From Alteripontixanthobacter maritimus (lineage in GTDB: Bacteria > Pseudomonadota > Alphaproteobacteria > Sphingomonadales > Sphingomonadaceae), in contig NZ_QBKA01000002.1 of assembly GCF_003340475.1 (NCBI RefSeq), positions 1,187,501 to 1,251,500 of the forward strand: 64,000 bases of DNA, given 5' to 3'. Positions 2,429-23,518 of the stretch are shown piece by piece. A program made the position numbers and the translations under genes. A model generated the notes under the pieces. That model saw only the letters and a list, made by a program, of their open reading frames with translations. It was not told the origin of the DNA and searched no databases. The first letter of the stretch is position 1; each line of letters opens with the position of its first letter.

Positions 2429-4366
2429 ATGATCCAAACATTCCGCAGATTTTTCACTTCCAAGATCGGGATCGTGGTCTCGCTGGCCTTTCTCGCTCTG
2501 ATCGCCCTGGCATTTGCCAGTATGGATGTGTCCAGCAATGCAAGCTTTGGCGGGTTGTCGAGCGGGGACACCGTTGCAGTCGTCGGCGATAACGAGATCA
2601 AGGCGCGCGACCTTACGCAGGCGGCGAATTCCGGGCTGGACCAGCAACGGCAGCAGGATCCCACCGCATCGATGGCCAGCTTCGTCGAGCGCGGGGCCTT
2701 CGATGACGTTCTCATGGGTTTGATCGACCGCAATGCGCTGCGCTCGTTCGGGGAACGTTATGGCCTTCGGTCCGGGAAAAACCTTATCAACAGCGAGATC
2801 CTGCAAATTCCGGCGTTCCGGGGTGCGGATGGCGAATTCGACGAAAACGCCTACCAGCAGATACTTTCGCAACAAGGCGTTACCGACGCGATGCTGCGTG
2901 ACGATCTGGCGCAAGGACTGTTCGCGCGGCAATTGCTCCAGCCTGCCGGTCTGGGCGCCTCCCTGCCTGAAACATTGATCCGGCGCATCGCCGCCTTTTC
3001 GTCGGAGCGACGGGTCGGCGGATTCGCTGTCATCCCGAGCGCAGCCTTTGCCCCGGAAGGCAAGCCTGACGCGGCGACCTTACGCGCATTCTACGAAGAC
3101 AATCGCGCTGATTTCATCCGGCCCGAGCGTCGCACTTTGCGCTATGCCACCTTCAATGCAGACGCGCTGGGGGATGCAATCAATCCGACCGATGCCGAAA
3201 TTGCTGCACGGTACCGGGAAAACGCCAGCGAATATGCAGCGAGCGAAAATCGGTCCGTCACCCAGCTGATCGTTCCGACGGAAGCTGCCGCCAAATCCAT
3301 CGCGCAACGTGTGCGGGGCGGTACCTCGCTGGCAGCGGCAGCCCGGGAAGCGGGCCTTGGAACAACATCCATCGGGCCGGCAGACCGCAAGACCTTTGCC
3401 TCGCAAACTTCTGCCGCCGTTACGCAGGCTATCTTCGATACAGGCGAAGGCCGCGTGGCGCCGCCCGCGCGAAGCGGCCTTGGCTGGCACGTAGCGCTGG
3501 TGACGGATGTCGAATCGGTTGCAGGACGCACTCTGGCGCAAGCTCGCAGCGAGATTGCCGGTGAACTGCGCGAAGAAAAGCGCCGCCGCCTGCTTAATGA
3601 AACTGCCGGCGATCTGGAACAGCGGCTTAGCGATGGCGAGGCGCTGTCCGACGTGGCGAAGGATCTGGGCATCAAGGTTCAAATTACCCGCCCGCTGATC
3701 GCCACCGGGCAGATCTACGGCTCGGCAGGTGAGTTCGGACCGGACGTCATTGCTCCGGCTTTACAAAGTGCCTTCGAAATGGACGAAAGCGAACCGCAAC
3801 TGGCCGAAGTCGAGCGCGGTGAAACCTTCCTCCTTTACGAAGTCACTCGCATCGAACAGTCGGCCGCTGCCCCGATCAAGGATATCGAGGAAGAGTTGAC
3901 GCTGGCATGGCGCATCTCGGAAGGTTCGAAAAAGGCGCGGGCCGCTGCCGACCGTATTATGAAACGTGTTGCGGGCGGCCAGTCGCTCGCCGCGGCCGTC
4001 AATGCGGAGAAAGCAACGCTTCCAGCCCCGCGCCCCGTCAATATGACCCGTCAGCAGCTGGCCGCCGCGCAGCCGCAAGGCGTGGAGCCGCAAATGGCGC
4101 TGCTGTTCTCGATGGCGGAAGGCACTACCAAAAAATTGGCGGCGCCGCGCAACATAGGCTGGTTCGTGGTCAATCTTGACGAGATCGAAACCGGCACGGT
4201 GGCCGACGATTCGCCGCTTCTCGAGCAGGCACGCCAGCAGATCGGAACCCTTGCAGCACAGGAATATTCCGAGCAGCTTATCAATGCCATCCGTTCCGCC
4301 GAAGGGGTGGAACGGAACGAAGAGGCTATTGCCGAAGTGCGCGCCTCGTTGCTCGGCAACAATTGA
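2429..4366 (+). CDS. ppiD: PpiD-like periplasmic peptidyl-prolyl isomerase / chaperone
   Basis: This is probably an inner-membrane-anchored foldase that helps proteins leaving the Sec channel to fold. The 645-residue chain has a short cytoplasmic start, one membrane helix (about residues 12-30) and a SurA_N-like chaperone region. A parvulin-type domain follows at about 255-360; its end, GLGWHVALVTDV, matches the family's terminal strand. A second, poorly conserved region follows to the C-terminus, as in E. coli PpiD. It precedes the trp genes on the same strand, and its TGA stop is in the same frame as trpE. Prolyl isomerase activity is not assured, since many PpiD parvulin domains are inactive. 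Confidence 0.85.
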   Translation: MIQTFRRFFTSKIGIVVSLAFLALIALAFASMDVSSNASFGGLSSGDTVAVVGDNEIKARDLTQAANSGLDQQRQQDPTASMASFVERGAFDDVLMGLIDRNALRSFGERYGLRSGKNLINSEILQIPAFRGADGEFDENAYQQILSQQGVTDAMLRDDLAQGLFARQLLQPAGLGASLPETLIRRIAAFSSERRVGGFAVIPSAAFAPEGKPDAATLRAFYEDNRADFIRPERRTLRYATFNADALGDAINPTDAEIAARYRENASEYAASENRSVTQLIVPTEAAAKSIAQRVRGGTSLAAAAREAGLGTTSIGPADRKTFASQTSAAVTQAIFDTGEGRVAPPARSGLGWHVALVTDVESVAGRTLAQARSEIAGELREEKRRRLLNETAGDLEQRLSDGEALSDVAKDLGIKVQITRPLIATGQIYGSAGEFGPDVIAPALQSAFEMDESEPQLAEVERGETFLLYEVTRIEQSAAAPIKDIEEELTLAWRISEGSKKARAAADRIMKRVAGGQSLAAAVNAEKATLPAPRPVNMTRQQLAAAQPQGVEPQMALLFSMAEGTTKKLAAPRNIGWFVVNLDEIETGTVADDSPLLEQARQQIGTLAAQEYSEQLINAIRSAEGVERNEEAIAEVRASLLGNN

Positions 4367-4426
4367 CGCGATCGGACCGGGCCGCTGACTAATAAGCTTG
4401 CCGATCCACAACACCCGTTTCCCGGA

Positions 4427-5935
4427 TTGCGCGGCGCAGATGACGCGGTGCAGCAGTTGGGGGACGGGAAGCCTGCGCTTGTCTGGCGGACCATCGTGGC
4501 GGACTGCGACACGCCGGTAGGTGCCGCCACGAAGTTGATGCAGCCCGAACGCGGAGACTTCCTGCTGGAATCCGTCGAAGGCGGCGAAATTCGCGGTCGC
4601 TACAGCCTGCTCGGGCTCGATCCGGACCTGCTGTTCCGAAGTGTGGATGGTAGACCCGCGATCAACCGGCAGTGGCAGCATGACCGTGACGCGTTCGAAG
4701 GGCTGGACGGTAGCGCGCTGGCGCAGCTTCGCGGCCTCGTCATTGCTTGCAAGATCGACGTACCAGACGGTCTGCCGCCGGCGCTTGCCTGCCTGGTAGG
4801 TTACTTCGCCTATGAAACCATCGGTGAGGTGGAGACCGTAACACGCGCTAAAGGCGAAGGGTTGGACCTGCCCGACATGGTATTCGTCCGCCCGACTGTG
4901 TTGCTGGTGTTCGATTCTCTGAGCGATGAACTGCACTGTATTGCGCCGATTTGGGCGAGCCCGGTTTCGCCGGAACACACAGTGGCAAAGGCTCACGACC
5001 GGATCGACGAAACGCTGCGGCAGCTTGCTCTGGGCCAACCCACCTCACCCGGCCCCCTTGCGAGCGAAGGCGAAACGGATTTGACGCCGCAGCCCATGAT
5101 GAAACCGGGCGAATATGCGTCCATGGTTGCGCAGGCGAAGGACTATATCGTGGCAGGGGACGTTTTTCAGGTGGTGCTTTCGCAGCGCTATTCCGCACCG
5201 TTCACCTTGCCACCGCTGGCGCTCTACCGCGCGCTGCGGCGGGTCAATCCATCGCCGTTCCTCTATTTTCTCGACTTGCCCGGATTTGCCGTAGTCGGTT
5301 CGAGCCCCGAAATCCTTGTCCGCGTGCGGAACGACGAGGTCACCATCCGTCCGATTGCAGGTACGCGGCCGCGAGGAGCCACGCCGGAGGAGGACCGCGC
5401 GGCGGAGGAAAGCCTGCTCGCCGATGCCAAGGAACGCGCCGAGCATTTAATGCTGCTCGACCTCGGTCGCAACGATGTTGGCCGGGTTGCCAGGCGCGGC
5501 ACGGTCGAAGTTACGGACAGCTACACCGTGGAACGCTATAGCCATGTCATGCACATCGTCAGCAACGTGGTAGGACAACTGGACGACCGGTACGATGCCG
5601 TCGACGCCTTGTTTGCAGGCTTTCCGGCAGGCACTGTCAGCGGCGCGCCAAAGCTGCGCGCATGCGAGATCATTGCCGAACTCGAACATGACCGCCGCGG
5701 GCCATATGCAGGCGGTGTGGGGTATTTCTCGCCGGATGGCTCTGTGGACAGCTGCATCGTATTGCGAACGGGTGTAGTGAAGGACGGACGGCTCCACGTG
5801 CAGGCAGGTGCCGGCATTGTTGCAGATAGCGACCCTGTTTACGAAGAACGCGAATGCGAAGCCAAGGCCGGGGCCTTATTTGCCGCCGCGCGCGAAGCCG
5901 TGCGGGTCGCAAGCGAAGTGGATTACGGTCAATGA
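4427..5935 (+). CDS. trpE: Anthranilate synthase component I
   Basis: TrpE converts chorismate to anthranilate using ammonia supplied by TrpG, the first committed step of tryptophan synthesis. The 502-residue frame has the N-terminal regulatory segment with the family motif LLES (feedback site region) and the chorismate-binding core (IRPIAGTRPRG, DLGRNDVGRV, SGAPKLRACEIIAELE). No ATG occurs between the upstream stop at 4364-4366 and the conserved region. The start given is TTG 4427; CTG 4385 and GTG 4448 are alternatives in the same frame, and none has a convincing ribosome site. The stop overlaps the next gene's start. Confidence 0.93.
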   Translation: MRGADDAVQQLGDGKPALVWRTIVADCDTPVGAATKLMQPERGDFLLESVEGGEIRGRYSLLGLDPDLLFRSVDGRPAINRQWQHDRDAFEGLDGSALAQLRGLVIACKIDVPDGLPPALACLVGYFAYETIGEVETVTRAKGEGLDLPDMVFVRPTVLLVFDSLSDELHCIAPIWASPVSPEHTVAKAHDRIDETLRQLALGQPTSPGPLASEGETDLTPQPMMKPGEYASMVAQAKDYIVAGDVFQVVLSQRYSAPFTLPPLALYRALRRVNPSPFLYFLDLPGFAVVGSSPEILVRVRNDEVTIRPIAGTRPRGATPEEDRAAEESLLADAKERAEHLMLLDLGRNDVGRVARRGTVEVTDSYTVERYSHVMHIVSNVVGQLDDRYDAVDALFAGFPAGTVSGAPKLRACEIIAELEHDRRGPYAGGVGYFSPDGSVDSCIVLRTGVVKDGRLHVQAGAGIVADSDPVYEERECEAKAGALFAAAREAVRVASEVDYGQ

Positions 5936-6789
5936 TGCGGCTGCTCATCGTTCCTCTGGCACTGACGCTGGTGTCCTGCGGAGACACGCCGGAAGGAAAG
6001 CCCGTCATGCGCACCGAAATCGGTAGCGGAGTGGCCGAGGATATCGCCGCGACGGGTGCAGAACCGGGGCAAGTCCTATCCGACGATCCCGCGTTGACAC
6101 CGGGCCGTCCATCCGCCTGCCGCACGCTGATGTTCGAGGGCGCGCGCTTTACTCATTGCATTGCCGACCCTGCCAGCCACCGGATTACCACCGCACTGGG
6201 ACCTGAAGGCGGCGCTCCATACCGCAGCCTGGCCCGCCTCGCCGCGGAGCGTGAGGCAAACGCCCCGCCGGTCGCCTTCGCCGTAAACGCCGGCATGTAT
6301 GACGATGAGGGCAAACCCATCGGTTATTTCGTCGAGAACGGTAACCGCCGCAAGGAACTGAGTCGCACCGAAGGAGCGGGCAATTTCCATCTGATGCCCA
6401 ATGGCGTTTTCTTCGGCACGAGCGGGAAATGGCAGGTGCGCACGAGCGACGACTTCTACCGCAATGTGGGCGACCGACCCCGATTCGGCACACAGAGCGG
6501 CCCGATGCTGGTAATCAAGGGCAAGCTGCATCCGGAAATTTCGCAGGACGGGCCGAGCAAGGCCATCCGCAACGGCGTTGGTGTGGCCAAGGACGGCAAG
6601 GCGCATTTCCTCATCTCGAACGAACCGGTCAGTTTCGGCAAGCTTGCCCGACTGTACCGCGACGAATTGAAGGTGCCCGACGCGCTGTTCCTCGACGGGA
6701 ATGTAAGCTCACTTTGGGACCCTGTCTCGGGACGGCTCGACACCGGGCCCGCGATTGGCCCATTACTCGTTGTCGAACTGAAGGAGTAG
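5932..6789 (+). CDS. Phosphodiester glycosidase family lipoprotein (DUF2233)
   Basis: The 285-residue protein starts MMRLLIVPLALTLVSCGD, a lipoprotein signal with lipobox LVSC, so it is probably anchored on the periplasmic side of a membrane. The rest matches the DUF2233/NAGPA phosphodiester glycosidase fold: VAFAVNAGMYDDEGKPIGY, NGVFFGTSG, a GTQSGPMLV block and a C-terminal DALFLDGNVSSLW. Relatives cleave sugar phosphodiesters; the substrate here is unknown. An upstream in-frame start at 5854 would place a non-signal extension inside trpE and was rejected. The start overlaps the trpE stop, and trpG begins 9 bp downstream, so the gene is embedded in the trp operon. Confidence 0.85.
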   Translation: MMRLLIVPLALTLVSCGDTPEGKPVMRTEIGSGVAEDIAATGAEPGQVLSDDPALTPGRPSACRTLMFEGARFTHCIADPASHRITTALGPEGGAPYRSLARLAAEREANAPPVAFAVNAGMYDDEGKPIGYFVENGNRRKELSRTEGAGNFHLMPNGVFFGTSGKWQVRTSDDFYRNVGDRPRFGTQSGPMLVIKGKLHPEISQDGPSKAIRNGVGVAKDGKAHFLISNEPVSFGKLARLYRDELKVPDALFLDGNVSSLWDPVSGRLDTGPAIGPLLVVELKE

Positions 6790-6798
6790 CGGGCAGCC

Positions 6799-7410
6799 AT
6801 GACCTCACCCGACATCCTCGTCATCGACAATTACGACAGCTTCACCTTCAACCTGGTGCACTACCTGATGGAATTGGGTGCGACGGTACAAGTGGAGCGC
6901 AACGATGCGCTGACTGTGCAGCAGGCGACAGACCTCGCGCCGCGCGGTATCCTGCTGTCCCCAGGACCGCGCACCCCGGACGATGCCGGTATTTCGCTGC
7001 CGCTGGTCGCTGCCTGTGCCGACAAACGCCTGCCGCTTCTCGGAGTATGTCTCGGCCATCAAGCGATCGGCCAGCATTTTGGCGGGCGCGTGGTGCGTGG
7101 CGGGCTGATGCACGGCAAGACAAGTCCGGTGACGCATGACGGTAGCGGGGTTTTTACAGACCTGCCCTCCCCGTTCCTCGCCACCCGCTATCACTCGCTG
7201 GTCGTGGACGGCATCCCCGATGTGCTGGAAACAAACGCCACCAGCGAAACACCGGGGCTGGACGGGACCAGCGTGATGGGGTTCCGCCACCGCGAGCTTC
7301 CGATCCACGGCGTGCAATTCCATCCCGAAAGCATCGCCACAGAACACGGCCACGCCTTGCTTGCCAATTTCCTCCAGATCTGCGGTATCGAAACGAAAGT
7401 GCCGGCATGA
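6799..7410 (+). CDS. trpG: Anthranilate synthase component II (glutamine amidotransferase)
   Basis: TrpG releases ammonia from glutamine for TrpE. The 203 residues form a class I glutamine amidotransferase: [11 protein letters not shown] at the N-terminus, oxyanion motif LSPGPRTP, nucleophile Cys84 in [12 protein letters not shown], and the catalytic His and Glu in GVQFHPESI near residue 175. It starts 9 bp after the glycosidase gene and overlaps trpD by ATGA, which suggests translational coupling. In some bacteria this subunit also serves p-aminobenzoate synthase; nothing here shows whether it does. Confidence 0.95.
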
Positions 7411-8399
7411 CCGAACTCCCCACAGCCGATACGCAACTGACGGAAGCCGAGGCGGAAGTGGTCTTCGGCCAAATCCTCGACGGAGAAGTCGGCGATGAAG
7501 AAATCGGCAGGTTCCTTGTCGATTTAAGCCAGCGCAGCGAAACGGCAGAGGAAATCGCCGGGGCTGCGCGCGCGCTGCGGGCCCGGCTGGTTCCGATAGA
7601 TGCGCCCGATGGCGCAATCGATGTGTGCGGTACGGGCGGCGACGGGCATCACACGCTGAATGTCTCCACCGCCGTATCGCTTGTTGTCGCAGCTTGCGGC
7701 GTGCCGGTCGCCAAACATGGCAACCGCGCGGCATCGTCGAAATCGGGCGCAGCGGATACGCTGGAAGCGCTCGGTCTGGATATGGAAGCGGCCGGACGCA
7801 CTGCGGAAAAGACGCTGGCGGAAATCGGCATCTGTTTCCTGTTTGCCAAGAACCACCACCCGGCCATGGGCCGCATCCAGCCCATTCGCCAGCGACTTGG
7901 CTGCCGGACGATTTTCAACCTGATGGGCCCACTGTCGAACCCCGCGCGGGTGGACCGGCAACTGATCGGCATCGCGCGGCCGGCTTACGTGCCGATCTAT
8001 GCACGCGCCAAGGCGCAGCTCGGCACCAGTTTCACCATGATCGTTTCGGGAGACGAGGGTCTGGACGAGTTGAGCCTGGCCGGCGGGAACGAGGTGGCCG
8101 AAGTACGCGGCAGCAGTTTCGCCATGCGCCGCTACGATGCCTCATTGGTGGACGTGCCAAACGCCCCTGTCGAAGCGATCCGCGGCGATGATGCAATTTA
8201 CAACGCCCGTGCATTGAAGGCTTTGCTGCATGGCGCACCGGGGGCCTACCGCGATGCGGTGGTGTTCAACGCCGCAGCTTCGCTGATCGTCTCCGGCACC
8301 TCGACCGAATGGGACGATGCAGCCGACCGTGCGCGTGCAGCGCTGGATATAGGCGCGGCAGAACGGTTGCTGGGACAATGGATTGAGATGGCGCAATGA
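7407..8399 (+). CDS. trpD: Anthranilate phosphoribosyltransferase
   Basis: TrpD joins anthranilate to PRPP. The 330 residues carry the family signatures: [20 protein letters not shown] (PRPP binding, about 73-92), [20 protein letters not shown] (about 105-125), and [16 protein letters not shown] near 165-180. The C-terminus is complete. The gene overlaps trpG and trpC by four bases on each side (ATGA), so trpGDC is a tight translational unit. Confidence 0.96.
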
Positions 8400-9181
8400 A
8401 CAAGCTGCAGGAAATCTGCGCAACCAAACGCGCCGAAGTCACTGCGCGAAAGGCAGTGCTGTCGCTGGCGGATCTGGACGCCCGCGCTCAGCAACATAGC
8501 GCCCCGCGCGGCTTCAGGGCTGCATTGGAGTCCAAGGCGAAGGACGGGTTCGCTTTGATCGCGGAGATAAAGAAAGCCTCCCCTTCGAAGGGATTGATAC
8601 GCACCGACTTCGATCCGGCGTCCCACGCGGTTGCGTATGAGAAAGGCGGTGCCGCCTGTCTTTCGGTACTGACCGACGCCCCCTATTTTCAGGGTCATGA
8701 AGATTACCTGATTGCCGCGCGCAATGTCTGCGCACTCCCGGTCCTGCGCAAGGATTTCATGGTCGATCCATGGCAGGTCGCAGAAGCCCGCGCGATCGGC
8801 GGTGATGCGATCCTGATCATCGTGGCCGCACTGGAAGATGGCGCGATGGCAGAAATCGAAGCGGCGGCGTTGGAGCATGGCATGGACGTTCTGGTCGAAG
8901 TGCATGACGAGGCCGAACTGGAACGCGCCCTGACGTTGCAATCCCGGCTGATCGGCGTCAACAACCGCGATCTGCGTACATTCACGACCGATCTGGCGAC
9001 CACCGAACGGCTCGCTCCCCTTGCGCCAACCGGCACGCTAATGGTGGCCGAGAGCGGCATTGCCAGTCACGATGATTGCACCCGGCTCGCCCGATCCGGC
9101 ATACATACGTTCCTCGTGGGCGAAAGCCTGATGCGTCAGGACGATGTCGCCGCGGCGACGCGGGAACTTCTGGTCGGATGA
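8396..9181 (+). CDS. trpC: Indole-3-glycerol phosphate synthase
   Basis: TrpC closes the indole ring of the tryptophan precursor. The 261-residue (beta/alpha)8 barrel shows [15 protein letters not shown] (catalytic lysine and phosphate site), [34 protein letters not shown] and VAESGI in the expected order. It is not fused to TrpF. The trpF, trpB and trpA genes are not in this window. The ends overlap trpD and moaC by ATGA. Confidence 0.96.
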
Positions 9182-9651
9182 GCAAGCTGACCCATCTTGA
9201 TAGCGACGGTAATGCCCGCATGGTCGATGTCGGAGCGAAAGCCGCGACGGCCAGGCGGGCGGTCGCGCAGGGCAGGATCACCATGTCGGCGGAGGCTCTG
9301 GAAAGTATCCGCGATGGCAATGCTCCAAAGGGTGACGTGCTGGCCGCCGCTCGCATCGCAGGTATTATGGCGGCGAAGCGTACGGGCGACCTTATCCCGC
9401 TGTGCCATCCGCTTGCGCTGGACGCGGTAACCGTAGACTTTGCGTTCGAGGACGGGGGACTGACCGTCACTGTGGCAGCATCCCTGACAGGCAAGACCGG
9501 CATCGAGATGGAGGCGTTAACGGGTGTAAGCGTGGCGTGCCTCACCATCTACGACATGGCCAAGGCGCTCGATAAATCAATGGTCATAGAAGGCATCCGG
9601 CTGCTGTCGAAATCGGGCGGCAAGTCGGGCGACTGGCACGCTCCGGCATGA
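9178..9651 (+). CDS. moaC: Cyclic pyranopterin monophosphate synthase
   Basis: MoaC converts the MoaA product to cyclic pyranopterin monophosphate in molybdenum cofactor synthesis. The 157 residues include [11 protein letters not shown], the active-site block [14 protein letters not shown], and the C-terminal [20 protein letters not shown]. The ATG at 9178 overlaps the trpC stop. An in-frame extension to 9076 only covers trpC sequence and was rejected. Its position in the trp/lexA operon is a typical sphingomonad arrangement rather than a functional link to tryptophan. Confidence 0.95.
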
Positions 9652-15460: not shown

Positions 15461-16747
15461 ATGGTGGATAACAACGCGACCCTTAATCTGGGCGAGCAAA
15501 GCCTCGACCTACCCGTTCTGGAGGGCAGCTGCGGCCCGGATGTCGTCGATATCCGCAAGCTTTACGCACAGACCGGAAACTTCACATACGATCCGGGATT
15601 CACCTCGACCGCCAGTTGCGAGAGCGCGCTGACCTTCATCGATGGCGAAGAAGGCGTGCTGCTGCATCGCGGCTACCCCATCGGCCAGTTGGCTGAAAGT
15701 TCCAGCTTCATGGAAACCAGCTATCTGCTGTTGAACGGCGAGCTGCCCGATCAAGACACGCTCAATGACTTTACGCATACAATCACGCGGCACACGATGT
15801 TGCATGACCAGTTGCGCCAGTTCTACCAGGGCTTCCGCCGCGATGCGCACCCGATGGCAATCATGTGCGGCGTGGTCGGTGCGCTGTCCGCGTTCTATCA
15901 CGACAGCACCGACATTTCCGATCCCGAACACCGCAAGATTTCCAGCCACCGGCTGATCGCCAAGATGCCGACGATCGCGGCATGGGCCTATAAGTACTCC
16001 ATCGGGCAGCCATTCCTGCAGCCCGATAATTCGCTCAGCTACACCGGCAATTTCCTGCGCATGACCTTCGGCGTTCCGGCTGAGGAATACGAAGTTCTTC
16101 CGGCAGTAGAGCGCGCGATGGACCGTATTTTCATCCTCCACGCCGATCACGAGCAGAACGCCAGCACTTCCACCGTGCGGCTCGCCGGATCGTCCGGTGC
16201 CAATCCGTTTGCCTGCGTTGCGGCTGGTATTGCCTGCCTTTGGGGGCCGGCTCATGGCGGCGCGAACGAAGCGGCGCTCAATATGCTGCAGGAAATCGGC
16301 ACGCCCGATCGCATCCCTGAATATATCGAGCGTGCGAAGGACAAGAACGACCCGTTCCGCCTGATGGGTTTCGGACACCGCGTGTACAAGAACTACGACC
16401 CCCGCGCGACGGTAATGCAGAAGACGGTTCGCGAGGTCTTCGAAGCCCTGAACGTCACCGACCCGGTATTCGAAACCGCGTTGCGGCTGGAAGAGCTGGC
16501 ATTGAGCGACGATTACTTTGCCGAGAAGAAACTGTTCCCGAATGTAGACTTCTACTCAGGCATCATTCTGTCTGCGATCGGTTTCCCGACCACGATGTTC
16601 ACCGCGCTCTTCGCTCTTGCCCGCACGGTCGGTTGGGTAGCCCAATGGAACGAAATGATTTCCGATCCCGGCCAGAAGATCGGTCGTCCGCGTCAGCTTT
16701 ATACTGGCCCGACGCAGCGCGACTATATCTCGCTCGACAAGCGTTAA
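15461..16747 (+). CDS. gltA: Citrate synthase (type II)
   Basis: Condenses acetyl-CoA and oxaloacetate to citrate, the entry step of the TCA cycle. The 428-residue length is typical of the hexameric, NADH-regulated bacterial type. Active-site blocks are [30 protein letters not shown] and the late PNVDFYSGI. The ATG at 15461 has a good ribosome site (AGGAG, 15449-15453). An earlier open frame from 15260 only reflects gltX. It is probably co-transcribed with gltX and ends at a strong terminator. Confidence 0.97.
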
Positions 16748-16797: not shown

Positions 16798-18219
16798 TCA
16801 GGATGCGGCGGGCAACAGCAGCGTGAACGTCGCACCCTTGTCCGGTTCGCTCGAGACAACCAAATCCCCACCCATCGCTCTTGCAAGGCTTCGTGAGATA
16901 TACAGACCAAGGCCGGATCCGCCATCCCCGCCCCGTCCGAGACGCTCGAACTTGTCGAAGACGACTGCCTGTTGCTCCTTGGTAAGGCCCTTCCCTTCGT
17001 CCGCAATTGCAATACCAACGCGATCACCTTCGCTTTTCAGGGAAAGCGTGACGGCCGATCCCTCCGGAGAATATTGCATCGCATTGCCTACCAGATTGAG
17101 AAGTATCTGGAGAACGCGCCGATCTTCTGCCGTTGCGAAAACACTTGTTGCTGCTTCCGGTTTGACGAGCGTGATCTTGCGTTCTGCAGCCTTCACCGCG
17201 AGGATACCCGCTGCGCGCTGTGCCGCATCGCCAAGGTTCACACGGTCTGCCGCCGTCGAAAAATCGCCGGATTCCAAAACTTCCAGATCCGACAGGTCGT
17301 CGATAAGCGACAGCAGATGCTGGCCGGCAGTAGCGATGTCGGCTGCGTAATTGCTGTACTCGTCTGCCAAGGGGCCTGCCAGTTTAGTTCGGATGGTCTC
17401 GGCATTGGCGATGATGCGCGCGATCGGTTGGCGCAGCACAGGCGACAGTTCGCTTCCCAGTCGGGGTGCGTGAGAATTGTGGACCGCAGGAGCTTCGTCC
17501 TGCGTAAATTTAGCTGGGCCTTCCTCAATCGGAGTGTCGGCAACCAGCAGCAATTCGAAGCCGGAACCACCAGGCTCGGGCACGCCGAGTGGAACCAGAT
17601 GCGCTGTCCAGCGCCTATCCGAACCGGGAAGCGAACATATACTGCCGTCCATCAGTCGCCAATGGAGCGGCATTTGATGCGCGGCATCTTCCAACGTTAC
17701 GAAATCGGTCCAGGGTCGGCCGATATTGGCTAGCATGCGGTCGGCGCATTGGTTGGTGTCGACAGCATGGGGTTCCGCCGAGAGCAAGTGTTGCCGCTTG
17801 TCGAGCCGCGCGGTCAAATCGGCCGAATGCCGATCGATGGCGACCTTGCGTTCGGCTACATCGTTCTGGTTCGGCCGCGCGATCGGGGATGTTTGCCAAG
17901 TGGCCACGCCGATCTCGAACCCGCCAGTAGCTGGGCCATCGGGTTTTTCATCGTCTGATGACATTGGAATGATTTCGACCCAACTGCGGATGACATCTTC
18001 GCCGTCCATCGCTTCCATGGGTCGGGCGATACGAAAACCGTAGGTCCGTGCCTTGTGTACCAGCTCCGACAGTTCGGGAATGGCTATCCGGCCGGGTATC
18101 GTGCCGCCGCAGCGTTTTTGCAGGGTTGCAAGCGGTTCGTCGGCAGACAGCAGTTGGCCGTCCGCATCGGTACGCCCATAGGCCAGCATCTTCCCGGAAC
18201 TGGCACCAATAGCGCTCAT
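16798..18219 (-). CDS. Histidine-kinase-like protein lacking the phospho-acceptor histidine
   Basis: The 473 residues have no membrane helix. An N-terminal half of uncertain, possibly PAS-like, fold leads to a dimerisation helix pair (about 250-310) and an HATPase_c domain. The ATP domain is intact: N box LLNLVGNAMQYSP (about 373-385), G1 DEGKG (407-411) and G2 GGSGLGLYISR (from 433). The H box reads SPVLRQPIARII where the family has S-H-E-L-R-T-P-L, so the phosphorylated histidine is Pro260. ATP binding is therefore plausible but ordinary autophosphorylation is not. The start at 18219 overlaps the upstream gene's stop (ATGA), and no response regulator is adjacent. The partner is unknown. Confidence 0.8.
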   Translation of the reverse strand: MSAIGASSGKMLAYGRTDADGQLLSADEPLATLQKRCGGTIPGRIAIPELSELVHKARTYGFRIARPMEAMDGEDVIRSWVEIIPMSSDDEKPDGPATGGFEIGVATWQTSPIARPNQNDVAERKVAIDRHSADLTARLDKRQHLLSAEPHAVDTNQCADRMLANIGRPWTDFVTLEDAAHQMPLHWRLMDGSICSLPGSDRRWTAHLVPLGVPEPGGSGFELLLVADTPIEEGPAKFTQDEAPAVHNSHAPRLGSELSPVLRQPIARIIANAETIRTKLAGPLADEYSNYAADIATAGQHLLSLIDDLSDLEVLESGDFSTAADRVNLGDAAQRAAGILAVKAAERKITLVKPEAATSVFATAEDRRVLQILLNLVGNAMQYSPEGSAVTLSLKSEGDRVGIAIADEGKGLTKEQQAVVFDKFERLGRGGDGGSGLGLYISRSLARAMGGDLVVSSEPDKGATFTLLLPAAS

Positions 18220-19172
18220 GGCGCAGAATGCCCGCCGCCCGCCTGCGCAATCATCGTCGCAGCGCGGTCGACCCGCAGATGTTCGAACCCTTCGGGCAAC
18301 GCGAAATCGGGGTGCACACACATGAACTGTTTTTCGATTTCGGAAGGCCGCAAACCAGCGGCGCGCAGTCCAAGTGCGAGGCGAGCCAGTTGACGCTCGC
18401 CAGTGCTGGCCACGACCACCTCGCGGGTTTGACCGCTCAAGTCGGCAAGCGCGGTCAGGAACAGGGCTGCACCGGAGTGCTGCACATTTAACGCCGCCCG
18501 CGCACCGGGGCCCATATTCGCAGTGACGCGGGATAGCAGCCCAAGACGGCTCGTGCGCTCGTCCATCGAATCCCTGATGCGCGCCTCGGCCTTCTGCGTG
18601 TCGCCCACAATGTCGCTGAAATTCGCCAGCGTCCTATGCAGCAAGTCGCCCGGCAATTCGGACAGCGGCAGCTCCATCCTGCGTTGCGCCTGTGTAAATC
18701 GGGCCTGAGCAGCGAGCAGGGCCATAGCGGTTTCCGCAACACTTTCGTCATCGGCAGCAATCAGGCTTTGCAGCAAAGGGCACAGGACCAGATCGATGGC
18801 GCTCCGGGCCTCGAGCCGAAATGACAACTGCCATTCCAGTGCCAGCGCGTGGACGTGGTGCAGCAACGCCGGATCGCGGGCGAGTTGCGCCCCGAACGGT
18901 GCGGCATGGTCGATTGCAAACTGCCTTGCTTCCTCTACCTCCAGCGTTTCGGCATGGACGCGCAACATTTGCGCGGCAACGTGTTCGATCATGGTCCGCA
19001 CCCGCACCACAATCTCGTCACTGAACATCGAATTGTCGGTGCTGGCCAGCAGATGTCCCAACACCGGTGCGATCGTCCCGCGCGCAAGATCCCCCTGGTC
19101 GAGTTCCTCCTGAAGGATGGCCTCGACCGGAGCTTCATCTTTTCGCGATTCCGCAGGCTCGATCATGCGCAC
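18216..19172 (-). CDS. Unrecognised helical protein
   Basis: I do not recognise this 318-residue protein. It looks almost entirely alpha-helical and soluble, has no signal or membrane helix, and is rich in Leu, Ala, Glu and Arg. Family DUF2336 was considered because of its size and helical nature, but no diagnostic motif was seen. It starts 3 bp after the nucleotidyltransferase-like membrane gene and overlaps the kinase-like gene by four bases, so it is translated from the same message as both. That arrangement suggests a role in the same pathway. Confidence 0.75.
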   Translation of the reverse strand: MRMIEPAESRKDEAPVEAILQEELDQGDLARGTIAPVLGHLLASTDNSMFSDEIVVRVRTMIEHVAAQMLRVHAETLEVEEARQFAIDHAAPFGAQLARDPALLHHVHALALEWQLSFRLEARSAIDLVLCPLLQSLIAADDESVAETAMALLAAQARFTQAQRRMELPLSELPGDLLHRTLANFSDIVGDTQKAEARIRDSMDERTSRLGLLSRVTANMGPGARAALNVQHSGAALFLTALADLSGQTREVVVASTGERQLARLALGLRAAGLRPSEIEKQFMCVHPDFALPEGFEHLRVDRAATMIAQAGGGHSAP

Positions 19173-19175
19173 GCC

Positions 19176-20363
19176 CTATCGCAGTTTAGTTAATCCGTGG
19201 TTAGTGAAAACAGCCCAGCGTGACAGCGCGATTGTCACCGTGGCGAGGCCGGCCATCAGCGCTGCTGCAGTAACCCAGCTTCCAAGGATTCCGCCACTTG
19301 TCAGCGCCAGCGGCAGCACTCCCTTGTCGGCGAATATCGAGCCGAACCGACCCGGTTCCGCCGCCGCCGTGCGGACCAGTGCAAATGTCGCAACCGCGAC
19401 GAACACTGCAAACAGCATCGGCACGGCTGCAGAGAGGGCGAGTGCCAGCAGCACCGTCCCAGTCAGATCCAGCACTATAGTGATCACAATGCGGGTCCTA
19501 GGAGGCATGGCCCTACCGCGGATCGCGCTAATGAGATTGGCTGCGCCCAGCACGAGTACGCCGGCAGACAACAGAGTCATGCCGACAAGTGGCAACAGTT
19601 GAAACGCGCACAGAACTGCCAGCGCGGCCAGCGCCCAGCCAAGTCCAGCCAGCACCAATGGAGCCCTGTCCGCCCGCTCCGCAATGCGCTGTAATGGATT
19701 GCGCAGCATTTCGGCCACGAAGCGCGAGGCTGGGCCGGGCACAGCTGCGATGGCTGCCTTGACGTGCAGTGTACCGTGCCGCGCCGCAACCACGCTGTCG
19801 GTGATGATCGGGGCCGTGCGCTGGTCCAGCGTCCGGACCGGGATGTTGCCGTTGCGGACAATCCGGATCAGCGCAGGAACAGGTGCGAAGCCGTCGCCAA
19901 GCATGTCTAGTTGCGAAAACAACGTCCCTGGCACCACCATTAAGCCTGCCCATTGCAGCGTTCCATCGATGCGGTTTGCAGCAGGATCGGCTGGCTCGCT
20001 GCTCGCATCGCCTGCCGAAAGCACATCCATCCGCGAGGCATCCCAGATGCCGCTATCGATAACGCCGCCGCTGGGGAGGAATCCATCATCCAGCACAACG
20101 ACAATATCGTCCGCCTGCACCAATCCGGGCAGTTGCGAGGCGTTCGGGACAAGCACCACATTGACCCGGCGGCGTTCCGCCTGATGCTGAAGGTTCAATG
20201 CCAGTTCGTCGGGCCTGTCCACCTGCAACAAAATGCGCTCGCACCCCGCATCGATCAGCGCAGCAACCTGCTGTTCGACCACGGTACGGCCAGCCACGCG
20301 CAGTCGGCCGCGAGCCGGACCGTGCGGACCTTCCGCAATTGTCAGCAACGCCGCCCGAGCCAT
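19176..20363 (-). CDS. Nucleotidyltransferase-like domain fused to a membrane region
   Basis: Of 395 residues, the first 200 or so resemble a sugar-phosphate nucleotidyltransferase fold: a GRTVVEQQVAALIDAGCERI segment, alternating strands and helices, and VVVLDDGFLPSGGVID. The usual GGxGTRL-type loop is not evident. From about residue 230 there are five or more hydrophobic helices. The CDP-alcohol phosphotransferase motif (DGxxAR...GxxxDxxxD) is absent, so this is not a simple nucleotidyltransferase-phosphotransferase fusion. The ATG is at 20363. The gene is the second of a four-gene minus-strand set. Function unknown. Confidence 0.7.
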   Translation of the reverse strand: MARAALLTIAEGPHGPARGRLRVAGRTVVEQQVAALIDAGCERILLQVDRPDELALNLQHQAERRRVNVVLVPNASQLPGLVQADDIVVVLDDGFLPSGGVIDSGIWDASRMDVLSAGDASSEPADPAANRIDGTLQWAGLMVVPGTLFSQLDMLGDGFAPVPALIRIVRNGNIPVRTLDQRTAPIITDSVVAARHGTLHVKAAIAAVPGPASRFVAEMLRNPLQRIAERADRAPLVLAGLGWALAALAVLCAFQLLPLVGMTLLSAGVLVLGAANLISAIRGRAMPPRTRIVITIVLDLTGTVLLALALSAAVPMLFAVFVAVATFALVRTAAAEPGRFGSIFADKGVLPLALTSGGILGSWVTAAALMAGLATVTIALSRWAVFTNHGLTKLR

Positions 20364-20463
20364 GGCTTGTCCGCCCTTCCCACTGCCAAACCGATTTGCG
20401 GTTCGACCGAAGGCTTAGGCGCGCAGGACAGCACTGCCAAGCAGCAGCGCAATTGCCAGTTGG

Positions 20464-20775
20464 TCAATCGGCAGGAGAGCTAGTGAATTCCACAAGTATG
20501 GCATTCAGCTTGCGCAGGATACCGGGTTCACCCGGTGCGCTGCTCACGGCTGCGTCAGCCAAGTCCATTAACGGCAAGACATGGAAACTGGCCGCCAACC
20601 CCTTGATCCGCTGCGCCGCGACAACCCAGTTGCCATCGCATCTTGCCCGTGAAAGCAGGTCGATATGCCCGGCGAGACTTTCTGCAAAGGCGGCACGCAA
20701 CTCTGCATGAAGCGCCGGATCATCCCCCGCCGCTGCCGCCAAAGTTGAATCGAATGCGCCATCTTCCTGTACCAT
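20464..20775 (-). CDS. Hpt-like protein lacking the phospho-histidine
   Basis: This 103-residue helical protein matches the histidine phosphotransfer (Hpt) pattern. AAQRIKGLAASFHVLPLMD aligns with the usual H-x-(L/I)-K-G-x-A-A-x-x-G segment, but the histidine position is Gln55 (codon CAG). It could still bind a response regulator or kinase without relaying phosphate. It is the first gene of the minus-strand set and starts 70 bp from the divergent TipN-like gene. The 100 bp to the next gene may hold a separate promoter. Confidence 0.65.
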   Translation of the reverse strand: MVQEDGAFDSTLAAAAGDDPALHAELRAAFAESLAGHIDLLSRARCDGNWVVAAQRIKGLAASFHVLPLMDLADAAVSSAPGEPGILRKLNAILVEFTSSPAD

Positions 20776-20845
20776 GCGAAGGGCGGTACGTCGCAGGCAG
20801 TTACGGAAGGGTTTAATCGCCGCCGAATTATGGTAAATCTTTTGT

Positions 20846-23518
20846 ATGACTCAAGGACATCATATTCGATCGATCGGATCGGGCGCTTCCGATGACAATG
20901 TCACAAATGTGAACGAACCCGTTGTAACTTATGAGGAATCCAGTTTCGAAGAAGTGCCGGTCGCAGACAGTGAGGCGATCTATTTCGAACAGGACGACGA
21001 GTGGAACGAAGCCGACCCAGGCGAGACCCATACCCCATCTGCATGGCGCGACTGGGCGGTTCCCGTGCTGGCCGGTCTTGTTATCATAGTCTGGAGCGCG
21101 TTTTTCGCTTGGACCTATAGGGACGCAATATCCGCTGGCGCAGCGCCCGCACAATGGGTCGAGTGGGTCGGGGCGTGGAGTGTACCGGTATTGCTGGTGG
21201 TCGCGCTCTGGCTACTTGTGATGCGCAATAGCCGGCGGGAATCCGCACGGTTCGCGGATGCCGCCAGCGCTTTGTCTCGCGAATCGCGGGAGCTGGAGGA
21301 ACGCCTTCTGGTCATCAATCGCGAGCTCAGCTTGGCACGCGAATTTCTCGGCACGCAGTCGCTGGCGATCGAGTCGGTAGGACGCGTTGCGACAGAGCGT
21401 CTGTCCGAACATGCCGACCACCTCGCTGCATTGGTGCATGACAATGATGCGCAGATAGACCGCATTGCAAATGTCAGTCTTACCGCCCGGGAAAACATGG
21501 AGAAATTGCGCGGCGACTTGCCCGTTATCGCAAATTCGGCCCGCGATGTCGCCAGCTCCATTGGCCAGGCTGGCGATGTGTCGGCCGAACGGCTCGACGT
21601 GCTTGTCGACGGATTTCGACGTCTCAACAGTTTTGGCGAAGCAAGCGAGCGGCAAGTGACATCGTTCCGTGGCGCGGTCGATGAAGCTTTGAGCGAGTTC
21701 GAAACGCAGGCCGGGAAATTGGGCGACATTGCCGACAGCCGCTTTGCCGAGCTTCGACATCAAGGCGAGGAATACCGGCTTCACTTGGATGGCCAGGAGA
21801 TAGAGGCGCTGGCAGCGATTCGTCATCGCGCCGAAACCATGCGAGCGGAAATCGCAGCGACCCGAGACGAGATTGGGGCCGAAGAAAACGCCAGCATCGA
21901 AGCGGTGCAGGAACGTGTTGCCGCCCTCCGCAGCGATACCGCCGGTATGCTGACGAACATCGACGAACACGGTGCGGCCATGCGTTTGCATTGGGAACAA
22001 CAGATCGACGCCCTTTCCGACCGGCTTAAAAACGCAATCGCGGAAGTGGGCGACATCGACCGCGCGGCGATGGACCGAGCCCGCAGCCGTATTACCGAAT
22101 TGAAAGACGAGGCCGCAGAAGTGGACGCTCGCCTGGAAGAAAGGACCCAGGCGTTCCTCACCGGTTCAATTCGACGGCGGGAAGAAAGCGAAGCGGCGGA
22201 TGAGGCAGCCCTTGCTACGCTTACCGCCCGGTTGGCCGACTTCGACAGCGACTTGGCCACGCGCGAAGAACAGCAGATCGCGCGCGTTCAGACTTTATCA
22301 GACGCGGCGGACTCTCTCGGCATGAAGATCGCCGCGATCGGCGAAACTATTACACGACTGGGCGCCGATAGCGCCGCAACTGGCGAGCGTGTTGTAGGCG
22401 ATGCCCAAGGTATCGAAGCGTGTCTGGCAGAAAGCAGGGCCAACATCGAATTGATCGGGACGGATTTGTCCGAATTGACCGATGGCAGTGTGCGCCTGCT
22501 CGAACTGATCCAGGCCAGCAGCCAGCATGGGCGCGAAAAACTTCCGGAAGCGCTGACCGAGGCGGAGGCCCGCCTTTCCGAAGCCGAGGACCGTACGAAC
22601 CGTCTGCACGATACGCTCGTCAACGCCGTTCAGCACGGAAGCGATTTGTCCAATTACGTACTCGCGACCCGCGAAGCAGGACAGGCTGCGATTGGCGATA
22701 TCGACGCCTTGCAAGCGCGCGTTACGGAACAAACCGATGCCGCCGCAGGCCGCGTTGCAGAACTGCGAGGTGCCGTAGCTGCGCTCGCCGACGAAACGCG
22801 CACCGTATCCGATCATGCAAGAATCGAACTGCAGGATACATTCGGCGAATTACAGGAAGCAATGCACGCAGCGTCCACAGCGATGGCGGAGGGTACAACC
22901 GTAGATATCAGGGCGCTCGCCGGGCAAATAGGCGAGCAAGCCGGCGAGGCGCTGCAAAACGCTGTCGCTCAGAATAGCACAGGTGCCATCGCCGATCTGG
23001 AGGCCGCGGCACTTGCCGCCGCCAGCAGCAGCCGCGAAGCGACCGCGCAATTGCGCGACCAGCTTGCCAAGGTGAACGAATTGACCGGCAATTTGGAAAG
23101 CCGGGTCGCCCGCGCGCGCGAGCAGGCGGAAGAGCAGGTGAACAATGACTTCTCCCGCCGTGTTGCGCTCATTACCGAGAGCCTTAATTCCCATTCCATA
23201 GACATCGAGAAAACGCTCGCCATTGAAGTGGACGATACGTCCTGGGCGTCCTACCTTCGCGGCGATCGTGGTATCTTCACACGCCGTGCAGTGCGACTGC
23301 TTGAGAACAGCGAAGCGCGCGATATTGCCGAAGTGTATGATGAAGACGCGGATTTCCGCGAAAATGTGAGCCGGTACATCCACGACTTCGAGGCGATGTT
23401 GCGCACGTTACTATCGACGCGCGACGGTCATGCTATCGGCGTGACACTGCTAAGCTCCGACATTGGCAAATTGTACGTGGCGCTCGCCCAGGCTATCGAG
23501 CGTCTACGGGAGGCATAA
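20846..23518 (+). CDS. TipN-like coiled-coil membrane protein
   Basis: The 890-residue protein has an acidic cytoplasmic N-terminus and two membrane helices (about 71-90 and 107-126). A very long Ala/Glu/Arg-rich, coiled-coil-prone region follows (about 135-800), then a short conserved-looking C-terminus (from about 820, with DDTSWASYLRGDRGIF). This architecture and length match Caulobacter TipN, the new-pole landmark protein (two N-terminal membrane helices, large coiled coil, 882 residues). The assignment rests on architecture, not on a recognised motif. Other long coiled-coil membrane proteins remain possible. It is divergent from the Hpt-like gene across 70 bp. Confidence 0.65.
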   Translation: MTQGHHIRSIGSGASDDNVTNVNEPVVTYEESSFEEVPVADSEAIYFEQDDEWNEADPGETHTPSAWRDWAVPVLAGLVIIVWSAFFAWTYRDAISAGAAPAQWVEWVGAWSVPVLLVVALWLLVMRNSRRESARFADAASALSRESRELEERLLVINRELSLAREFLGTQSLAIESVGRVATERLSEHADHLAALVHDNDAQIDRIANVSLTARENMEKLRGDLPVIANSARDVASSIGQAGDVSAERLDVLVDGFRRLNSFGEASERQVTSFRGAVDEALSEFETQAGKLGDIADSRFAELRHQGEEYRLHLDGQEIEALAAIRHRAETMRAEIAATRDEIGAEENASIEAVQERVAALRSDTAGMLTNIDEHGAAMRLHWEQQIDALSDRLKNAIAEVGDIDRAAMDRARSRITELKDEAAEVDARLEERTQAFLTGSIRRREESEAADEAALATLTARLADFDSDLATREEQQIARVQTLSDAADSLGMKIAAIGETITRLGADSAATGERVVGDAQGIEACLAESRANIELIGTDLSELTDGSVRLLELIQASSQHGREKLPEALTEAEARLSEAEDRTNRLHDTLVNAVQHGSDLSNYVLATREAGQAAIGDIDALQARVTEQTDAAAGRVAELRGAVAALADETRTVSDHARIELQDTFGELQEAMHAASTAMAEGTTVDIRALAGQIGEQAGEALQNAVAQNSTGAIADLEAAALAAASSSREATAQLRDQLAKVNELTGNLESRVARAREQAEEQVNNDFSRRVALITESLNSHSIDIEKTLAIEVDDTSWASYLRGDRGIFTRRAVRLLENSEARDIAEVYDEDADFRENVSRYIHDFEAMLRTLLSTRDGHAIGVTLLSSDIGKLYVALAQAIERLREA

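Follow-up and report, generated by a model that had tools for sequence, protein, structure and literature searches.

The locus described here raises the question of how a histidine kinase and a histidine phosphotransfer (Hpt) protein, both lacking the phospho-accepting histidine, come to be encoded beside the gene of a candidate polar scaffold. It lies in a stretch of 64,000 nt from Alteripontixanthobacter maritimus (contig NZ_QBKA01000002.1, positions 1,187,501 to 1,251,500), called the window below, and comprises five genes which we refer to as KIN, HEL, NTR, HPT and TIP. A sequence-only reading had described four close-packed minus-strand genes and a scaffold gene divergent from them across only 70 bp, and had claimed that both phosphorelay folds are without their histidine. 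We confirmed the layout and its coordinates, with KIN, HEL, NTR and HPT head to tail on the minus strand and TIP on the plus strand, and at the histidine positions we found Pro260 in KIN and Gln55 in HPT. The answer that we favour, and consider moderately probable, is that the locus derives from a phosphorelay which was attached to a pole scaffold of the TipN/GPR type and which is now non-catalytic.

Histidine loss and linkage across the family

We compared 147 genomes of the order, among them 62 other genomes of the window's family which carry TIP and one family genome without it (G121). The phospho-accepting histidine was absent from all 44 KINs linked to TIP in the family, from 46 of the 47 alignable HPTs beside TIP and from 13 of the 14 KINs located elsewhere in family genomes; these tallies leave out two extra KIN domain fragments, and the HPT of one locus (L231) was not alignable. 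A single genome, G053, has the histidine, and it has it in both proteins. Its HPT reads THRLKG, while its KIN orthologue (E 7e-68) reads MSHELRTPL and is encoded directly behind a DUF2336 protein (133.3 bits). Quick trees set G053 apart: its TIP falls outside a single clade of the remaining 47 family rows (support 99), and its KIN outside a single clade of the remaining 44 KIN rows (support 99). Neither tree includes near-duplicate rows, which we removed manually (15 loci in the case of TIP). By parsimony both losses are assigned to the interval after the divergence of G053 and before the common ancestor of the remaining family members, and these sequences are most simply explained if an active relay was deprived of both histidines early in the family. 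Since the sole His-bearing KIN and the sole His-bearing HPT share one genome, the data suggest that the two proteins changed together. Judged from the compared sequences, the Hpt protein and a PAS histidine kinase coupled to DUF2336 are thus shown to have lost their histidines in the same genomes after the lineage of G053 had split off.

Outside the family we searched with His-bearing queries and found Hpt genes beside TIP at 5 of 8 loci of the order's other families, at 4 of 19 loci of the class and in Sinorhizobium meliloti; the histidine is kept in all ten. These Hpts are encoded on the strand opposite to TIP, at a distance of 75 to 1565 bp in nine loci. By this comparison the pairing of a TipN/GPR scaffold gene with an oppositely oriented gene for a His-bearing Hpt is shown to be old, as it occurs in S. 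meliloti, in the order's other families and elsewhere in the class. The TIP locus of G053 runs from an Hpt to a response regulator and then to a second Hpt, and a response regulator and second Hpt adjoin TIP in 8 of 8 loci of the order's other families. We also observed that, in loci of these families and of G053 (L111, L113-L120), the second Hpt-like protein (HDMKGQGGTFGY in most) has as its neighbour a receiver protein whose C-terminal FGPDRRR motif is conserved.

HEL was detected in 32 of the 147 genomes, all within the window's own family. In the 31 HEL-bearing relatives KIN, HEL and TIP lie inside one 17-kb stretch without exception (31 of 31), which argues that their linkage is not due to chance; the same stretch contains HPT in 27, NTR in 26 and gltA in 30 of them. 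At the TIP loci of the 62 family genomes KIN is linked in 44 and NTR in 45, and HPT adjoins TIP in 48. The complete set of five is found in 32, a count that includes one locus tallied by hand (L223), where the HPT frame overlaps the start of TIP. The sequence-only reading had named unlinked genes in most relatives as evidence that would refute it, and with KIN and TIP linked in 44 of 62 genomes the genes are linked in most. Of the 44 loci with a linked KIN, 41 also contain the citrate synthase gene gltA. A comparable arrangement is seen in Sphingomonas parapaucimobilis YK209 (NZ_CP155749.1), where citrate synthase is followed by a small gene, KIN, a gene in the HEL position, NTR, Hpt, TIP, two other genes, DUF1467 and RNase J. 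The histidine positions hold Arg in KIN and Leu in HPT of this strain, and its HEL is assigned by place alone, since the protein matches neither the HEL profile nor DUF2336 (Pfam).

The same counts bear on an alternative which we regard as rather unlikely, although it is the strongest of those considered, namely that the island consists of two unrelated units. HPT-TIP would then belong to a pole scaffold and NTR-HEL-KIN to a sensor of the membrane or envelope, and their adjacency between gltA and RNase J would be inherited and mean little. Such independence would suit G005, in which the order NTR-HEL-KIN is retained away from HPT-TIP, as well as the 12 of 62 loci where the HPT-TIP pair stands alone and the 14 of 19 searched family genomes in which a KIN that is not linked to TIP was found elsewhere. 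Two unrelated units would, however, hardly be expected to stay linked in 44 of 62 loci despite high divergence, and the coincidence of both histidines in G053 suggests a joint change.

The kinase-like and Hpt-like proteins

KIN (16798..18219, minus strand) can be firmly assigned to the HisKA/HATPase family by its Pfam scores (HisKA 30.6 bits, HATPase_c 90 bits). Its 507-amino-acid frame begins too early, and from the coupled ATG at 18219 the protein comprises 473 amino acids, for which hydropathy indicates no transmembrane segment. In the alignment Pro260 (codon 17440..17442, minus strand) occupies the place where the phospho-accepting histidine of HisKA belongs, whereas the key residues of the ATP-binding N, G1 and G2 boxes do not vary among the 25 KINs aligned. 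Of eight pairs compared, six had a finite dS, and in these the ratio of non-synonymous to synonymous substitution rates (dN/dS) was 0.03-0.27, a rough range as dS was mostly above 1.

DivL carries a tyrosine at the position of the phospho-accepting histidine. We rejected the identification of KIN as DivL, because KIN has a proline there and a separate, DivL-like kinase is encoded elsewhere in the window's genome (G000:C2:836979-837182, L145), in which SYELRTPL replaces SHELRTPL. KIN resembles DivL in being a HisKA/HATPase protein without the phospho-accepting histidine, and differs from it in having proline or other residues but no tyrosine. DivL itself is described as a kinase-like protein of the CckA pathway with a proposed allosteric role by binding (PMC9430884, in excerpt). 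A plasmid search with KIN at 1e-40 gave no match, though S. parapaucimobilis has a diverged KIN. Near HPT-TIP in G035 lies a gene (L103:3875-5530) for a kinase which has the histidine and whose N-terminal part is long and helical; by score this kinase is no KIN orthologue, and the KIN of that genome lies elsewhere.

HPT (20464..20775, minus strand; 103 amino acids) is predicted to adopt the helical Hpt fold, on the basis of an AlphaFold model with a predicted local distance difference test (pLDDT) value of 90.4. A Foldseek search with this model placed ShpA at the top (TM 0.64, probability 1.00, E 0.29) and only Hpt-type domains in the first 17 rows, with no match at E 0.001 or better. The best VIA-align match was HptB (Z 11.7, root-mean-square deviation 2.5, 100 aligned). 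A sequence search of the PDB with the HPT profile returned nothing credible. Gln55 (codon 20611..20613, minus strand) stands at the phospho-accepting position, so the histidine of the HxxKG motif is missing. Across 28 aligned rows, representing the window's part of the family, 20 columns are invariant, including R43, R45, C46, D47, N49 and W50, and several of these residues are lost in more basal copies. For seven pairs dN/dS was 0.04-0.20, again rough with dS mostly above 1. By this comparison purifying selection is shown to maintain KIN and HPT, which in most cases share an operon with a degenerate membrane protein resembling CTP:inositol-1-phosphate cytidylyltransferase/DIPPS (IPCT-DIPPS).

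The invariant boxes of KIN could also mean that it retains kinase output on some other protein or residue in trans, with HPT perhaps using a moved histidine, His65 of an SFH motif, which we found in 24 of the 28 aligned HPTs. We consider this improbable. The residue that replaces the histidine in the 44 TIP-linked KINs is variable (P in 32, R in 3, Q and E in 2 each, and S, A, T, V and D in one each), His65 is absent in 4 of the 28 HPTs and not kept in more basal copies, and we infer that a shift of 10 residues along the helix would put it on another face. The further idea that the locus is decaying, as pseudogenes of a former relay heading to loss, agrees with the loss of part or all of the island in G105, G133 and G135, but it is very improbable given that the frames stay open in dozens of genomes, that dN/dS is far below 1 and that HPT residues are invariant in all 28 rows if not in all basal copies. 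Relatives which keep both histidines would have pointed to simple decay of this locus as well, and G053 is the sole such genome in the family.

TIP and the TipN/GPR(RgsE) family

TIP (20846..23518, plus strand; 890 amino acids) is a candidate polar scaffold. Hydropathy indicates two N-terminal transmembrane segments at residues 70-88 and 108-126, and a long helical region is predicted from the sequence and from weak matches of the coiled-coil type. The last 140 residues (23096..23515, plus strand) are the best conserved part. At 1e-10 the full-length TIP profile matched 126 of the 147 genomes of the order and 65 of 289 genomes of the class, but when applied at 1e-5 to four Caulobacterales genomes this less diverse profile matched none. 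The result was reversed, and the link to TipN restored, with a profile built from the C-terminal domain across the class. It matched all five Caulobacterales genomes searched, each with an E-value of 1e-8 or below, and two of these matches fall in short frames. In Caulobacter vibrioides DSM 9893 the match (E 5e-10) lies at the end of an 882-amino-acid frame, counted from the first Met, with two N-terminal transmembrane segments. The printed length of TipN is 882 (PMC13170164, in excerpt), and we identified this protein as TipN by its length and architecture.

Far above the score of TipN, the same profile gave 162 bits for a 2089-amino-acid 'kinesin' of S. meliloti CP090106.1, an apolipoprotein-domain protein. 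The published length of RgsE, the Sinorhizobium homologue of GPR in Agrobacterium, is 2089 amino acids (PMC7327166, in excerpt), and the resemblance between GPR and TipN is already in print (PMC8546619, in excerpt). The description of TIP as 'TipN-like' therefore stands as one of distant homology, with RgsE/GPR scoring far higher. The shared C-terminal domain, together with the two N-terminal transmembrane segments and the long helical region, shows by comparison that TIP belongs to the TipN/GPR(RgsE) family, as far as sequences can place it. TIP differs in length from its two relatives (890 amino acids against 882 in TipN and 2089 in RgsE), and its Hpt neighbour is dead. According to an excerpt of PMC8262873, GPR without its C-terminal 221 residues loses its function, while a longer deletion is less severe; we infer that these residues are the site of the domain common to TIP, TipN and RgsE.

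In S. meliloti CP090106.1 (L203) a His-bearing single-domain Hpt (2105-2473) is divergent from the rgsE-sized gene (3091-9360), and this Hpt is a candidate phosphotransfer partner of the polar growth protein RgsE/GPR. The excerpted parts of PMC9022086 describe no such Hpt-RgsE pair. Similar Hpt neighbours were seen in L113-L117, L132, L133, L136 and L138. CP090106.1 (3.7 Mb) is labelled plasmid pSymB, but judged from its size and the presence of rgsE it looks like the main chromosome. ShpA is the Caulobacter Hpt of the ShkA-ShpA-TacA relay (PMC7010744, in excerpt). Besides being the top Foldseek match of HPT, it is homologous to the His-bearing Hpt beside TIP in L113 (E 1.2e-8), whereas the HPT of the window is without the histidine. 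The 15-kb stretch of C. vibrioides that contains the TipN-sized gene showed no Hpt next to it.

Operon partners, promoter and possible role of the island

HEL, NTR and HPT of the window carry no Pfam, NCBIfam or PHROG label above cut-off. HEL (18216..19166, minus strand; 316 amino acids, alternative start GTG 19172) overlaps KIN by ATGA at its stop and the start of KIN. It had been regarded as an unrecognised helical protein; an AlphaFold model (pLDDT 93.4) indeed predicts an all-helical structure, yet the protein is recognisable as probably a diverged DUF2336. The window's HEL does not match DUF2336 (PF10098) in Pfam, but 7 of 10 proteins in the HEL position of relatives pass the cut-off of 34.6 bits (G053 133.3, G122 60, G039 56.4, G047 51.7, G044 47.2, G144 40, G056 35.9), with G005 below it at 22.9 and no DUF2336 match in G123 and S. 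parapaucimobilis. In hhalign comparisons with DUF2336 the alignment of the window's HEL reached a probability of 4.9% and a basal HEL set (A7) 76.7%. A profile comparison of the window's HEL alignment with the HEL-position protein of L108 was not significant either, so that the link to DUF2336 rests on the more basal co-linear relatives. A fold search with the HEL model gave no match at E 0.001 or better (best VIA Z 2.9, other folds being possible), the PDB sequence search with the HEL profile nothing credible, and a literature search for DUF2336 no paper.

NTR (19176..20363, minus strand) is separated from HEL by 9 bp, or by 3 bp if HEL starts at GTG 19172, and from HPT by 100 bp. It had been called a nucleotidyltransferase-like membrane protein. 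The membrane protein holds, and the rest is to be corrected, as by profile and motif comparison NTR is a degenerate relative of IPCT-DIPPS. Its profile matches the C-terminal, membrane part of the Archaeoglobus fulgidus enzyme (4mnd, E 1.2e-7); neither the CDP-alcohol transferase motif DxxDGxxAR(x8)GxxxDxxxD nor the nucleotide motif GxGxR occurs in any of 45 NTRs searched as whole frames. Both motifs are present in two distant homologues of the class (L159, L160). With the histidine missing from KIN and HPT and the motifs from NTR, three proteins of the operon are without the catalytic residues of their families. In G105, which lacks the island, a CDP-alcohol phosphatidyltransferase with an intact motif adjoins TIP (L110:7893-8756).

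The 70-bp divergent promoter region between HPT and TIP (20776..20845) contains a degenerate CtrA-like box at 20801..20815, TTAC-N7-TTTA, with 2 mismatches to TTAA-N7-TTAA and a position conserved in relatives. TTAA-N7-TTAA is reported as the CtrA motif across Alphaproteobacteria (PMC9437464, in excerpt). In 48 upstream regions, from 47 loci and the window, we observed the box exactly in 9 and with at most one mismatch in 23, compared to means of 0.08 and 1.66 (maximum 6 for the latter) in 100 dinucleotide shuffles. For 44 of these 48 regions the distance between the HPT start and the best match is 23-27 bases. We take the CtrA-like box as a lead. GANTC sites were absent from 26 of 27 non-empty divergent promoter stretches.

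If the phosphorelay has become non-catalytic as we propose, KIN would still bind ATP and serve as a DivL-like conformational switch that reads a signal by its N-terminal half. HEL, being translationally coupled to KIN, would be its partner, and HEL and HPT would carry the state of KIN to TIP at the membrane by binding, with no phosphotransfer, HPT acting as a binding module for TIP or for a receiver. NTR would tie the complex to the membrane, and the divergent HPT and TIP genes would be timed by CtrA. The sequence-only reading had likewise proposed an allosteric or scaffolding pathway in place of a phosphotransfer chain, perhaps with a link to the pole or the cell cycle, and such roles are conjectural. 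In its full form, which we put forward tentatively and hold to be possible rather than probable, the proposal is that a complete phosphorelay on a pole scaffold was converted early to a phosphate-free complex, in which both histidines were lost together, the partners were gathered with a dead membrane enzyme, and the whole was kept family-wide for pole or envelope control.

Several observations weigh against the descent of the locus from a scaffold-bound relay. G053 is the only intermediate, and its TIP branch is long (1.51), so that its placement is less sure than the tree support suggests. KIN and HPT lie on different contigs in this genome, and that they formed one relay is our reading. The next lineages to branch, G105 and G133, carry neither KIN nor HPT, so each loss may fall on either of two successive branches. 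Small open frames stand between Hpt and TIP in several outgroup loci, with a gap of up to 1565 bp. Within the family, HPT was undetected beside TIP in 14 of the 62 loci and a His-less KIN was located elsewhere in 13 of the 19 searched genomes without a TIP-linked KIN, and the five genes therefore do not form an obligate unit. The CtrA-like box of the window is weak, and the promoter regions compared are related by descent. The literature searched contained no functional data on any gene of the island.

The island is flanked by gltA (citrate synthase, 15461-16747) upstream and by DUF1467, RNase J and then coaX downstream. In Caulobacter, tipN cpdR cells have defects that are alleviated when the citrate synthase CitA is lost (PMC7083601, in excerpt). 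The position of gltA next to the island recalls this genetic interaction, and we draw no claim from it.

Single pseudo-kinases such as DivL are already known. If our reading is true, the loss of the histidine from a kinase and from an Hpt protein in one lineage, beside a pole scaffold, would be a natural case in which a phosphorelay became an allosteric device, and for which G053 provides a living His-bearing relative for comparison. The old gene neighbourhood of Hpt and TipN/GPR is in addition a new lead for the study of polarity and polar growth in Sinorhizobium and its relatives.

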